Source of the DNA: Streptomyces sp. SolWspMP-5a-2
GTDB taxonomy: Bacteria > Actinomycetota > Actinomycetes > Streptomycetales > Streptomycetaceae
Length of the DNA: 64,000 nt
Reading direction: 5' to 3'
Assembly: GCF_900091845.1 (NCBI RefSeq)
Contig: NZ_FMCI01000251.1
Location: 1 to 64,000 of the forward strand
Part shown: piece after piece, positions 33,596 through 37,682 of the stretch
Numbering within the stretch: position 1 is the first letter of the stretch
How the letters are laid out: the number at the start of each line of letters is the position of its first letter
Program-made: the position numbers and the translations under genes
The notes under the pieces: generated by a model
What the model was told of the DNA's origin: nothing
The model's input: only the letters and a program-made list of their open reading frames with translations
The model's database searches: none

Positions 33596-33924
33596 CCGCC
33601 CCCGCAGCCGGGTTCGCGCCACCGTGCGCGCGCCCGCCGTGCGCGGTACGTCCCGTTCCGAGGGCCTGGATCCAGCCAACCGGACGGCCCTCCTCCGTAG
33701 TTCGCGCCCGCTCGCACGCCGGGGCGCGCGGCATCGACCGACGCGCCCCGAAACGGGCAGCCACCCCCGTCAGGTTGTTGCAAGTCGGCCGACGGAGGCC
33801 CGTACATACCCGTACACACCAGTGGATTGCGCTGCCCGACCCGGCCCGACCCGTGTTGCGGAGCCGGGTGTGTCCGCGCATAGTTGCGCTGCGGAAGACG
33901 CGGGAACCGGGGGTGAAATGGGCG
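33596..33924. other. Intergenic region upstream of LuxR-type gene 1
   Basis: No gene seen. It has a 10-bp tandem direct repeat (CCCGTACATA/CCCGTACACA, 33799-33818) that could be a regulator site for the downstream gene, and a small hairpin near 33880. Confidence 0.4.
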
Positions 33925-34956
33925 ATGGCCGGGCACGGGACGGAGGAGCATCCGCACGGTGCCGACCGGCTCTGCGACGCCGGGGACCGCGTGTACTCCC
34001 GGGCCGTACGGCGGGGCAGGCTGCCGCGCCGCGACGCCGAGCCGGTGCCGTGCCTGCTCGAACTGGCGCTGCTGCACCCCGATCCCGACGACATGGACTG
34101 GCTGGTGCCGACCTCCCCGCAGGAGGTCATGACCCGGCTGCTGCGCGGGGTGCACGACGAGGTCTCCGCCAGCCAGCGCCGGGTGGGCTCGGCGGTCGCC
34201 GCCTTCGAGTGGTACGCCGCGCTCGGCCCGACCGAACGCCCGGGGGCCGGTGAGGGCGCCGCCATCCGCGTCCTCGACGGACTCGCGCGCATCCAGGCCG
34301 CGATGGACGAGGCGACCGAGGCGTGCACCCGCGAGGTGCTCACCGTGCAGCCGGGCGGCATCCGCCCCGAGCACGAACTGACCGAGGGACTGCACCGGGC
34401 CCTGGCCCTGCGCGCCCGGGGCGTGCGCATGAAGGACCTCTACACGCACGTCGCCCGGCACGGGCACGGCCTGCTCAACTACCTGGAGCTGATGGGCGAC
34501 GCGGTGGAGGCCAGGAGCCTCGACGAGGTCATCGACCGGCTCATCCTGTTCGACCGCACGGTGGCGTTCATCCCCGCCAACGCCGACCGCACCCTCGCCC
34601 TCGAACTGCGCCACCCGGCCCTGGTCGGCTACCTCGCCACCACCTTCGACCGGCTGTGGCGGCTGGCGATCCCGCTGACCGCGCCGCTGCCCGACACCGG
34701 CATCGAGGGCATCTCACACCGCGAGCAGTCCATCGCCGCGCTGCTCGCCGAGGGCCACCAGGACGCGGTGATCGCCGAGCGGCTGGGGATCAGCGTGCGC
34801 ACCTGCCGGGCCCACATCGCCCGGCTCTCGGAGACCCTCGGCGCGGCCAGCCGCACCCAACTCGGCGTCCGGATAGCCCAGGTGGGCCTGGAGGGGCCGC
34901 GCGACCCGGCGGAGCGGGTCAGTCTTCCTGATCAAGGATCCCCGACCGTCCGATGA
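33925..34956 (+). CDS. LuxR-type regulator 1 (paralogue set)
   Basis: A 343-residue regulator. The C-terminal HTH is GISHREQSIAALLAEGHQDA then IAERLGISVRTCRAHIARL. The upstream sensor-like part resembles TrmB/phospholipase-D-like effector domains: EVLTVQPGG, MKDLYTHVARHG, RSLDEVIDRLILFDRTVAFI and LALELRHPALVGYL. It is paralogous to the next two genes on the other strand. The ATG at 33925 has GGTGA 8 nt upstream; a GTG at 33913 is possible. Its 3' end overlaps that of LuxR-type gene 2 by 38 nt, tail to tail. The effector is unknown; the neighbouring exported repeat protein is a candidate signal source. Confidence 0.78.
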   Translation: MAGHGTEEHPHGADRLCDAGDRVYSRAVRRGRLPRRDAEPVPCLLELALLHPDPDDMDWLVPTSPQEVMTRLLRGVHDEVSASQRRVGSAVAAFEWYAALGPTERPGAGEGAAIRVLDGLARIQAAMDEATEACTREVLTVQPGGIRPEHELTEGLHRALALRARGVRMKDLYTHVARHGHGLLNYLELMGDAVEARSLDEVIDRLILFDRTVAFIPANADRTLALELRHPALVGYLATTFDRLWRLAIPLTAPLPDTGIEGISHREQSIAALLAEGHQDAVIAERLGISVRTCRAHIARLSETLGAASRTQLGVRIAQVGLEGPRDPAERVSLPDQGSPTVR

Positions 34957-35893
34957 GGTAGCCGAGCTGGGCCCGGCTCTCGCTGCCCAGGGTCGCCGCG
35001 AGTTTGGCGATGTGCACCCGGGCGGTCCTGACGTTCATCCCGAGCCGGTCCGCGATGACGGCGTCGGTGTGGCCCTCCACCAGCAGCACCGCTATCGCCC
35101 GCTGCCGGGCCGTCACCGGGCCGCGGGCGGGCGGCGCGGCGGCCCGCGGGTGCATCGGGACGGCCAGCGGCCAGAGCCGTTCGAAGGTGGTCGTCAGGTA
35201 GTCGACCAGCGGGCGGTGGCGCAGTTCGAGGGCGAGGGTGCGCTCCGGGTTGGCGGGGATGAACGCGACCGTGCGGTCGACGACGATGAGCCGGTCGGGC
35301 ACCTCGTCCAGGGTGCGGACCTCGACGTCCCCCTCCAGGAGTTCGTAGTGGGCGAGGACGGCCGGGTCGTGGCGGGTGGTGTGCTGGTAGAGCGTCCGCA
35401 TCCGGCCGCCCCGGTCGAGCAGCTCCTGCTCCTTCGGCAGCACGAGCGCCAGCATCGACGCGGGCCGCTTGCCGCCCGGCTGGACGGTGAGGACCTCCTC
35501 GTCGGCGCGCAGGACGGCGTGCCCGATCGCGTCGTTGATCCGGTCGGCTCCGCTGAGCAGGGTGATGCCGGGGGCGTCGGCCGCGTCCGAGGTGCCCGCG
35601 CCCAGCTCCAGGAGGGGCTCGAACGCCTCCGCGAGCCGGGTCTCGGCCCGGCGTCTGCGGGCGACGTCCTCGGCGGCGGTGCGCAGCAGCCTGGGCAGCG
35701 CCAGGGCGGGCGGCACCGGGCGCAGCCAGTGCGGGGCGTCCAGGTCGGGGCGGAGCAGCCCGGTGTGCAGCACGCACGGCACCGGGGCGGCCTCGGGTTC
35801 GGGGACCCGGCCCTCCCGCAGGGCGCGGGCGTACAGGGCGAGGCCCGCCGCGCACGGCTCGCCGGTGCTGTGCGGGTGCGCCGGTGGCGTCAC
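34919..35893 (-). CDS. LuxR-type regulator 2 (paralogue set)
   Basis: A 324-residue paralogue with the same landmarks: VPCVLHTGLLRPDLDAPHWL, EVLTVQPGGKRPASML, RMRTLYQHTTRH, LIVVDRTVAFIPANPERTLA, and the HTH VTARQRAIAVLLVEGHTDAV with LGMNVRTARVHIAKL. It lies 25 nt downstream of LuxR-type gene 3 on the same strand, so the two are probably cotranscribed. GTG start; the ribosome-binding site is weak. The TVAFIPANxxRTLALELRH segment, shared almost exactly with regulator 1, may form the ligand pocket. Confidence 0.78.
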   Translation of the reverse strand: MTPPAHPHSTGEPCAAGLALYARALREGRVPEPEAAPVPCVLHTGLLRPDLDAPHWLRPVPPALALPRLLRTAAEDVARRRRAETRLAEAFEPLLELGAGTSDAADAPGITLLSGADRINDAIGHAVLRADEEVLTVQPGGKRPASMLALVLPKEQELLDRGGRMRTLYQHTTRHDPAVLAHYELLEGDVEVRTLDEVPDRLIVVDRTVAFIPANPERTLALELRHRPLVDYLTTTFERLWPLAVPMHPRAAAPPARGPVTARQRAIAVLLVEGHTDAVIADRLGMNVRTARVHIAKLAATLGSESRAQLGYLIGRSGILDQED

Positions 35894-35918
35894 GGCTGTC
35901 TCACTTCGTCTCCCGGGG

Positions 35919-36902
35919 TCAGGGTTCCTGCCTCAGAATCCCCGACTGGGCTATGAGGTAGCCGAGCTGGGCGCGGCTGCCGCTGCCCAGGGCGCTGGCG
36001 AGCTTGGCGATGTGGGCGCGGCAGGTGCGCACGTTCATGCCGAGGCGCCGGGCGATGGCCTCGTCGACGTGGCCCTCGATGAGGAGCTTGGCGATGGAGT
36101 GCTGGATCTCGGTGATGCCGTCGGGGGCGGTCTCGTAGGGGGCGCCCGCGCTGAGCGGGACGGCGCGGTCCCACATGAACTCGAAGAACTTGACGAGGTA
36201 GCGGACCAGGCCGGGGTGGCGCAGTTCGAGGGCGACCTGGCCGTCGTCGCTGATCGGGATGAAGGCGACCGTCTCGTCGCAGATGATGAGCCGCCCGACG
36301 AGTTCGTCGATGGTGCGGTACTCGACCTTGCCGCTGGCGAACTGGGCGACGTAGGCGAGCGTCTCCGGGCTGTGCCGGGCGGTGTGCTGGTAGAGGGTGC
36401 GGATGCGGCAGCCGCGTTCGATCAGCGGCCGGTCCCGCTCCAGACCCTGTACGAGCGTGTGTTCGAGACGACGGCGGCTCGGCTGGACGGTGAGCATCTC
36501 GGACTGGCACTGGGCGGTGGCCAGATCGAGCGCCGCGTTGATCCGGTCGATGCCCTCCAGGACGGTGATCGAGTGGGTGGTGGAGGAGACCTGGGCGCTC
36601 AGTGCCATGAATGGCTCGAAAGCCTCGGCCAGCTCCATCGACAGCCGGCGGTGCTGCGTGATCTCGTGCTCGATCGGGTTGACGCGTTGCGCCAGCGCGA
36701 TCGACGGCGGCACCGGGCGGAGCCATTTGTCGTCGTCAGGGTCGGGGTGCAGGAGCGCGAACTCCATCAGGCAGGGCGCCGATTCCACGTCATCCCGGGC
36801 AATGCGCCCGGTGCGGAGGGCGTTGCCGTAGAGACGCGCGCCCTCGTCACACATGGCGGTCAGCGCATGAGGATGTGTCCGCTTAGTCTCGCTTGTGGCC
36901 AA
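35919..36902 (-). CDS. LuxR-type regulator 3, divergent from the DSTW peptide gene
   Basis: A 327-residue paralogue. It keeps CLMEFALLHPDPDDDKWLRP, RIRTLYQHTARHSPE and HTH LGMNVRTCRAHIAKLASALG. It departs from the other two at sensor positions: LTVQPSR rather than LTVQPGG, and ICDETVAFIPISDDGQVALE rather than DRTVAFIPAN..RTLALE. Start is probably the TTG at 36902, with GGAG close upstream and N-terminal length matching regulator 1; the ATG at 36854 is the alternative. It shares a 112-bp promoter region with the repeat-peptide gene, making it the likeliest direct regulator of that operon. Confidence 0.75.
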   Translation of the reverse strand: MATSETKRTHPHALTAMCDEGARLYGNALRTGRIARDDVESAPCLMEFALLHPDPDDDKWLRPVPPSIALAQRVNPIEHEITQHRRLSMELAEAFEPFMALSAQVSSTTHSITVLEGIDRINAALDLATAQCQSEMLTVQPSRRRLEHTLVQGLERDRPLIERGCRIRTLYQHTARHSPETLAYVAQFASGKVEYRTIDELVGRLIICDETVAFIPISDDGQVALELRHPGLVRYLVKFFEFMWDRAVPLSAGAPYETAPDGITEIQHSIAKLLIEGHVDEAIARRLGMNVRTCRAHIAKLASALGSGSRAQLGYLIAQSGILRQEP

Positions 36903-36919
36903 ATCTCCACCCCCCAGGG

Positions 36920-36947
36920 TCCTGAACGTGCAGGAACATGATGCATC
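36920..36947. promoter_or_regulatory. Operator candidates between LuxR-type gene 3 and the DSTW operon
   Basis: An inverted repeat TCCTG-N6-CAGGA (36920-36935) and the 8-bp palindrome GATGCATC (36940-36947) lie side by side in the 112-bp divergent intergenic region. LuxR-type HTH dimers commonly bind such dyads. No strong -35/-10 pair is obvious for either gene. Confidence 0.4.
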
Positions 36948-37014
36948 GATTGTGTGGCCATGACGTGCCGGAATGGGCCATCGTCGTAGTCGACGGGGGA
37001 GAGGTGACCTTCAA

Positions 37015-37350
37015 ATGAGGACGAAGCCGACTATGCATAAGAGAATGCTTCGCTCGGCGCTTGTCGCCGCCTTCTCCGTGGCTGTGGCCCTCGGCACGCT
37101 GACCGGCCTGGCGGGAACGAAGAGCGACACCCGCGCGGACAGTACCTGGCGCGCCACCGTGGCCGCGGCGGTGCCGGGAGACAGCACCTGGTTCGCGTCG
37201 GCCGCCGCCGTGCCCGGGGACAGCACCTGGGTGGTGCGGGCGTCCGACAGCCCCCAGGACGACAGCACCTGGGTGGTGACGGCGTCCGACCGGACGCAGG
37301 ACGACAGCACCTGGAGCGTGGACGACAGCACCTGGGCCGTCGAGTCATGA
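37015..37350 (+). CDS. Exported small protein with six DSTW repeats
   Basis: A 111-residue protein with a Sec-type signal (LRSALVAAFSVAVALGTLTG after a basic MRTKPTMHKRM start). The mature part is six DSTW motifs at residues 42, 56, 69, 83, 97 and 104, spaced 14, 13, 14, 14 and 7 residues; repeats 3 and 4 extend to DSTWVV. It has no Cys and few charged residues other than Asp. Five copies use the same codons (gacagcacctgg). I do not recognise a family. Layout suggests a multi-copy pro-peptide cut into DSTW-type peptides, or a repetitive surface protein. GAGGTGA lies 7 nt before the ATG. The stop overlaps the Rieske-like gene by 4 nt, and LuxR-type regulator 3 is divergent. Confidence 0.8.
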   Translation: MRTKPTMHKRMLRSALVAAFSVAVALGTLTGLAGTKSDTRADSTWRATVAAAVPGDSTWFASAAAVPGDSTWVVRASDSPQDDSTWVVTASDRTQDDSTWSVDDSTWAVES

Positions 37351-37682
37351 CCACGCCTCCCGACGACCGGTCCTTCCGTCGCGAGATGGCCACGGCCTAC
37401 CGCTCCGGCTGGCACTTCATCGACCTGGTCACCGCGATCCCCCATCCGGGTGACTCGCTGATGGTGACGGTGTTCGGCGAGCCGGTGGTCGTGACGCGTG
37501 ACGAGGATGAGGACGTACGGGCGTACCGGTGTCTGCGGCGGCCTCGGGGGGCGCCGCAGCCGGTGAGGTGTGCCATCCGGTACGGAATGATCTTTGTGAA
37601 CCTTGATCAACGAGACCACAGGCTGGTGGAGCCGGAGGCCCCCACCCCGCGAACCATCTCAGCCACCCCCCGCAGTGCCTGA
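37347..37682 (+). CDS. Small degenerate Rieske-like protein
   Basis: A 111-residue protein whose ATG overlaps the DSTW peptide stop (ATGA). The core SGWHFIDLVTAIPHPGDSLM, then FGEPVVVTRDEDEDVRAYRC matches the start of the Rieske domain of ring-hydroxylating oxygenases, and IRYGMIFVNLDQ matches the strand that follows that domain. The cluster-binding part is shortened and the expected C-x-H and C-x2-H are CLR and CAIR, so both His ligands are missing. It is unlikely to hold a 2Fe-2S cluster and may be a binding or scaffold protein for the co-translated peptide. No signal peptide. The fold is assigned by eye. Confidence 0.6.
   Translation: MTTPPDDRSFRREMATAYRSGWHFIDLVTAIPHPGDSLMVTVFGEPVVVTRDEDEDVRAYRCLRRPRGAPQPVRCAIRYGMIFVNLDQRDHRLVEPEAPTPRTISATPRSA

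Follow-up and report, generated by a model that had tools for sequence, protein, structure and literature searches.

The window, i.e., the whole stretch of 64,000 nucleotides of Streptomyces DNA analyzed here, harbors a gene for a small exported protein in which the tetrad DSTW occurs six times, and the question raised by this locus is what the repeats are for and which of the neighboring gene products responds to them. The precursor ORF (37015..37350, plus strand; 111 aa) has an ATG start and encodes a basic n-region and a hydrophobic core, the signal peptide comprising about residues 1–35 as judged from sequence. The DSTW copies follow at exactly the residues claimed in the earlier note, i.e., 42 (37138..37149, with TRA just before), 56 (37180..37191), 69 (37219..37230), 83 (37261..37272), 97 (37303..37314), and 104 (37324..37335), all on the plus strand. 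Orthologous precursors start with GTG or ATG, immediately 5′ of a conserved RTKPTM. No Pfam or NCBIfam family matched the precursor. The ORF coordinates also bear out the described surroundings: the next gene (37347..37682, plus strand), encoding a Rieske-like partner of 111 aa, overlaps the precursor by 4 nt and is translationally coupled to it in the window, and the divergent regulator reg1 (35919..36902, minus strand; 327 aa), proposed here as receptor and transcription factor, starts at 36902, 112 bp off.

To describe the repeat unit, 193 distinct precursors were collected with the pattern [DN]xxW. Copy number ranged from 1 to 10, with 28 tetrads and 69 pentamers represented, and an outlier (L126) contained at least 18 copies of DTGWT. 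The motif can be written as [DNE]-x-x-W-x, is uniform inside one precursor, occurs in 1 to about 18 copies, and varies between species (DSTW, DSSW, DTVWD, DSHWP, DPIWQ, DITWG, and others). A single motif was present in 127 of the 138 multi-copy orthologues and mixed motifs in 11, so the repeats are not due to chance. Identity at motif position 3 was 0.962 within and 0.172 between these 138 precursors. The two copies matched in 77 of the 81 two-copy precursors, as compared to a maximum of 19 in 20,000 permutations, with an agreement of 1.00, 1.00, 0.95, 1.00, and 1.00 over the five positions, while the flanks of the copies agreed at 0.02–0.26 only. Identical copies shared a codon 149 times, 147.9 being expected from independent synonymous draws. 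Codons that behave as random synonyms, together with unlike flanks, indicate that selection keeps a pentapeptide unit, and they speak against gene conversion or recent duplication as the source of the homogeneity. Loss of the DSTW repeats from orthologues had been named earlier as an outcome that would speak against a dedicated system; the opposite was found, the motif being kept and its letters changed.

Both ends of the peptide unit are marked. The C-terminus coincided with the end of the last copy in 97/193 precursors, and Ala directly preceded the first copy in 79/138, often as VxA or AxA. The fifth residue differed between copies in the clades with DSTW and DSSW, which include the window precursor (identity of 0.29 and 0.43, respectively, in precursors with three or more copies). 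Owing to this free fifth residue, these clades may have a tetrapeptide, or a mixture, as the mature and active form. The suggestion that the protein is a pro-peptide giving Trp-containing signal peptides is thus strongly supported. Selection acts on a stretch of 4–5 residues, the motif differs between species but is nearly constant inside any one precursor, and its individual residues covary with those of the reg1 sensor domain, as described below.

The AlphaFold2 model of reg1 (mean pLDDT 80, pTM 0.47) showed a winged-helix-like N-terminal part, a long helix, a domain at residues ∼109–250 (36153..36578, minus strand), and a C-terminal HTH, probably of LuxR type (residues 260–327; 35922..36125, minus strand). 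The closest PDB entries were archaeal TrmBL2 (E 1.9e-13). The sensor (residues 109–252) could be superimposed on NucT (Z 17.8, rmsd 2.1 over 135 residues) and on the TrmB sugar-binding domain (Z 16.0, rmsd 2.5 over 129), in line with a PLD-like sensor placed after the winged-helix part; the whole-chain rmsd was high, the relative placement of the domains being uncertain. The Pfam GerE scores of reg1 and of its paralogues reg2 and reg3 were 16.2, 23.1, and 38.5 bits, respectively, against a cut-off of 23.5, and the HTH helices were visible in the reg1 model although its score fell below that cut-off. The acyl-homoserine-lactone binding domain of classical LuxR proteins gave no Pfam match in the regulator, the sensor of which resembles PLD folds, and no TPR domain was matched in Pfam or NCBIfam, the model consisting of PLD/TrmB-like and HTH parts. 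The protein is predicted to be soluble and cytoplasmic.

Joint change of regulator and peptide was evaluated on a tree that combined the Rieske-like gene with reg1 outside the sensor domain and is independent of the sensor. By parsimony on such trees from short genes, the sensor domain showed an excess of changes on peptide-changing branches, with z values of 2.4, 3.9, and 7.0 for peptide positions 2, 3, and 5, a covariation that is a sequence statistic and by itself no proof of direct contact. On the same tree, no significant excess for these positions was found in the conserved HTH of reg1 (z 1.7, −0.2, and 0.5) or in the Rieske-like protein (z 0.9, −0.2, and −0.3), and the N-terminal part and coil of reg1 showed a weaker excess (z 2.1–3.4).

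The clearest correspondence was observed for reg1 residue 136, which is Met in the window (36495..36497, minus strand). Met occupied this site wherever peptide residue 2 was Ser (123/123) and never otherwise (non-Met in 68/68), the rule thus holding in 191/191 sequences; Val136 was accompanied by Thr, Val, or Leu in 65/65 and Ala or Ile136 by Val or Leu in 3/3. On the tree without the sensor domain, site 136 and peptide position 2 changed on the same branch 26 times as compared to 4.8 expected (z 11.5), and on the reg1 tree all 21 inferred switches between Ser and non-Ser coincided with switches between Met and non-Met. No reg1 site other than 136 explained more than 25% of the Ser/non-Ser variation at peptide position 2. 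This fits a size exchange, with the long Met facing the small Ser and shorter side chains facing Thr, Val, Ile, and Leu. Peptide positions 3 and 5 were tracked by sites 143, 145, 146, 149, 152, 181, 188, and 221; within residues 142–153, a loop and helix start (36444..36479, minus strand), covariation was strongest at 149, 152, 146, 143, and 145. For example, Arg149 and Glu152 were found together with Ser, Asp, or Asn at peptide position 5. In the PLD fold, the covarying sites probably correspond to a strand and the loops following it, bordering what was once the catalytic pocket.

The rule for site 136 was fixed in writing before 40 more divergent loci were examined. It was kept in 35/35 loci that could be scored automatically, six of them unused in the first analysis, and new motifs appeared among these held-out loci (DPIWQ, DPVWD, DITWG, DIGWV, and DPGWT), in which Leu136 goes with Pro at peptide position 2. 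Eleven further loci with Glu at position 1 (EPSWE, EPTWE, and EISWS) also followed the rule, with non-Met and non-Ser. The comparison supports the peptide unit, its selection, and a receptor specificity conferred through the sensor domain, and reg1 is very probably the receptor of the peptide from the DSTW precursor. Three paralogous PLD-LuxR regulators are located side by side in the window (33775–36902): reg2 (34919..35893, minus strand; 49% identity to reg1) lies directly downstream of reg1, and reg3 (33775..34956, plus strand; 47% identity) lies beyond it. The peptide is followed by reg1 alone, and reg2 and reg3 were rejected as receptors as their residue 136 does not follow the peptide. 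With a simple filter, no peptide genes were seen beside other paralogues in this genome (C87, C359, and C369).

The product of the coupled gene had been described as Rieske-like. The likeness holds as a weak sequence match (Pfam Rieske E 0.01, below the cut-off; NCBIfam glycine betaine monooxygenase E 7e-7) and as a fold, with Rieske oxygenases as the best PDB matches (E 6e-4, prob 1.00, TMq about 0.5; model pLDDT 73); it does not extend to the ligand histidines, both of which are replaced by Arg (CLR, CAIR). Cys62 and Cys75 were kept in 223 and 228 of 229 sequences, and R64 and R78 were invariant in alignment A3. The protein (37347–37682) hence displays Cys2Arg2 in place of Cys2His2; a variable linker leads to an invariant C-terminal PRSA, which may serve in binding or as a degradation tag. 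The proposal that the repeats are a substrate modified by or bound to this partner found no support, since the ligand histidines are lost, covariation with the peptide is absent, and a search next to the regulators of the other families gave no homologue; the lost ligands and missing covariation also speak against a modifying enzyme or peptide-binding protein. Our best guess is that the partner is a constant, peptide-independent accessory in this genus.

The divergent promoter region (36903..37014) is strongly conserved across Streptomyces. The dyad TCCTG-N6-CAGGA reported between the divergent genes is present at 36920..36935; ∼60 bp around it are strongly conserved, and the dyad itself was exact in 173/188 orthologous intergenic regions. 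It is probably the operator of the regulator. The second element claimed for this region, the palindrome GATGCATC, does occur at 36940–36947 and is not a constant feature: its presence in only 88/188 orthologous regions excludes GATGCATC as a conserved operator. The extended dyad site occurs exactly only once in this genome, other matches being two with three mismatches. A wider regulon through this operator was discarded on that count, and the single exact site suggests that the main direct role is autoregulation, or else that recognition elsewhere is looser. The ∼60-bp conservation exceeds what an operator and two promoters take up and may mean overlapping sites or an RNA element.

Relatives of the regulator, paralogues included, were found in 295 of 296 Streptomyces genomes, and at nearly every Streptomyces locus inspected, the precursor was divergent from the same regulator. 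Among 130 loci of close orthologues (L006–L135), a small exported ORF was present in nearly all and a Rieske-like match in all; in five of them (L035, L078, L090, L121, and L126), the small ORF was missed initially and recovered with a wider filter. The Rieske-like gene was identified in 183/246 genomes of the order, all within one genus, and a further 80 loci were all from Streptomyces by title save one filed as Kitasatospora aureofaciens; S. coelicolor was not among them.

A class-level search retrieved regulators of about 26–40% identity in several other families. In family f28 (two genera, g59 and g120), where the gene order differs from that of Streptomyces, a small exported ORF was convergent with the regulator in 12/13 loci. 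In several of these loci, the motif directly follows a signal-peptidase-like site (AHA/DTSWG, AEA/DSSWG, AEA/DTGWP, and AQA/DTAWE). One precursor (L335) reads AQA-DTAWE...Q-DTAWE and ends there; the cleavage-like site and the C-terminal end show both ends of the pentapeptide fixed by other signals. The correspondence at site 136 was also retained in this family, Met136 occurring with Ser and Leu, Ala, or Ile136 with Thr in 12/12. No clear precursor was found at L337 (f28) or at the f21 and f19 loci. At many f28 loci (L325, L329–L333, and L335–L337), a conserved gene for a small membrane protein (∼140–150 aa, YRLAP...ARLLG) adjoins the mini-precursor on the same strand. At L334, in family f30, an exported small ORF ending in STIWG, perhaps another peptide type, lies on the opposite strand about 1570 bp before the end of the regulator.

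These findings are, with high confidence, attributed to a secreted pentapeptide pheromone that the divergent regulator detects within the cell. We infer secretion, proteolysis, re-import, the operator, the direction in which regulation acts, and what the Rieske-like protein does. The precursor would be exported through its signal peptide, and signal peptidase and extracellular proteases would release a peptide of four or five residues, [D/E/N]-[S/T/P/V/L/I]-x-W-x; in the window strain, this would have the fixed core DSTW, in six copies, with a free fifth residue. The peptide would re-enter cells, presumably through an oligopeptide permease, and bind to the PLD/TrmB-like sensor domain of reg1, where Met136 may read peptide residue 2 and residues around 142–153, 181–188, and 217–221 may read residues 3 and 5. 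Binding would alter the action of the LuxR-type HTH on the intergenic dyad and perhaps elsewhere too. Joint changes of peptide and receptor could give rise to species-specific signals (pherotypes), with the Rieske-like protein as a constant partner independent of the peptide.

Among the alternative explanations, it is conceivable, if rather unlikely, that the peptide signals but that reg1 senses it inside the producer or via a further protein, so that the state of export and proteolysis is monitored (self-sensing) and not density. The predicted cytoplasmic location of reg1 requires an importer, and none is encoded in the locus; however, AxA before the motif and the C-terminal placement fit maturation outside the cell, and generic oligopeptide permeases are known to serve Phr systems. 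It is highly improbable that the peptide, once secreted, acts as an effector (toxin-like or directed at competitors), with reg1 or the Rieske-like protein as sensor or immunity protein of the producer. Translational coupling of the partner gene would suit such an arrangement, and bacteriocin-immunity pairs also diversify rapidly with a matched partner, but the covarying protein here is a DNA-binding regulator and not the product of the coupled gene, the module is single, strongly conserved, and tied to a conserved locus in most Streptomyces, which is not what bacteriocins usually show, and in the other family nothing Rieske-like was found next to the regulator. A structural or cell-surface protein with polymer-binding Trp repeats, homogenized by duplication or conversion and covarying with reg1 through phylogenetic linkage, would agree with an exported, repetitive precursor of variable copy number but is hardly credible, as codons of identical copies differ like random synonyms between unlike flanks, many precursors have just one or two copies, and the covariation is strongest in the sensor, not significant in the HTH and the Rieske-like protein on the same trees, and kept in unseen loci and in another family.

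A pentapeptide pheromone read by reg1 would resemble the RRNPPA systems (Rap-Phr, PlcR-PapR, NprR-NprX, and AimR) in having a small exported propeptide beside a cytoplasmic regulator, a short linear peptide, and covariation of receptor and peptide; some RRNPPA propeptides also hold several copies of the pheromone (PMC11343458). The RRNPPA receptors of Bacillota are TPR proteins, whereas in these actinomycetes a PLD/TrmB-like sensor is combined with a LuxR-type HTH, and the motif contains a Trp that never varies and starts with an acidic residue or Asn. Archaeal TrmB/TrmBL proteins share the PLD-like sensor after an N-terminal winged-helix part but not the additional C-terminal LuxR-type HTH, and the proposed ligand of reg1 is a peptide and not a sugar. 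Signaling in Streptomyces has been described almost entirely through gamma-butyrolactones (A-factor/ArpA and ScbR type), likewise diffusible signals of this genus that are thought to control antibiotics and development. Gamma-butyrolactones are small molecules made by enzymes and read by TetR-type receptors, in contrast to a gene-encoded peptide with a receptor of another family. No description of such a peptide-regulator system was found in the search, which covered openly licensed journal papers.

The findings point to a gene-encoded peptide language in most Streptomyces, the words of which differ by species; the key contacts of the receptor would be readable from sequence, and five-residue synthetic peptides follow directly. 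Such a language would also provide a case in which a PLD-like domain has been co-opted to receive peptides. We lean, with some reserve, towards a wider reading taken as a whole, in which gene-encoded linear pheromones of the form [DEN]xxWx are read by transcription factors of PLD/TrmB fold instead of TPR proteins in most Streptomyces and at least one other family, forming dozens of pherotypes with a readable code, controlling antibiotic production via SCO3664 in S. coelicolor, and possibly including the peptide imported by BldK. The 655-Da factor of S. coelicolor is comparable: this small peptide occurs outside the cells, enters them through the oligopeptide permease BldK, and has a presumed signaling role in development. 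The DxxWx peptides offer a concrete candidate class for it; no identity is claimed. The candidate pentapeptides listed span 520–691 Da.

The link to S. coelicolor rests on gene order. The clpB gene, which is SCO3661 in S. coelicolor, adjoins the module in the window and in genome G355, where the other flank is the dnaJ-hspR end of the dnaK operon. SCO3665 and SCO3666 have 327 and 394 aa in a published list of LuxR proteins (PMC3282765), lengths close to those of reg2 and reg3, and SCO3664 is hence most likely reg1; the syntenic reg1 of S. coelicolor is thus probably SCO3664, a gene identity that is deduced. When SCO3664 was disrupted by insertions, actinorhodin rose more than 50-fold (PMC6585502). 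A peptide signal acting through reg1 would be a possible explanation for this overproducing mutant. The agarase DagA and the peptide RamS were searched as markers of S. coelicolor. The only DagA-positive genome, G355, is improbable as S. coelicolor, with RamS at 93% and a different layout of the locus. Its agarase (C1:786026–786862, L136) was identical to the S. coelicolor DagA sequence used as query, and a recent transfer is possible.
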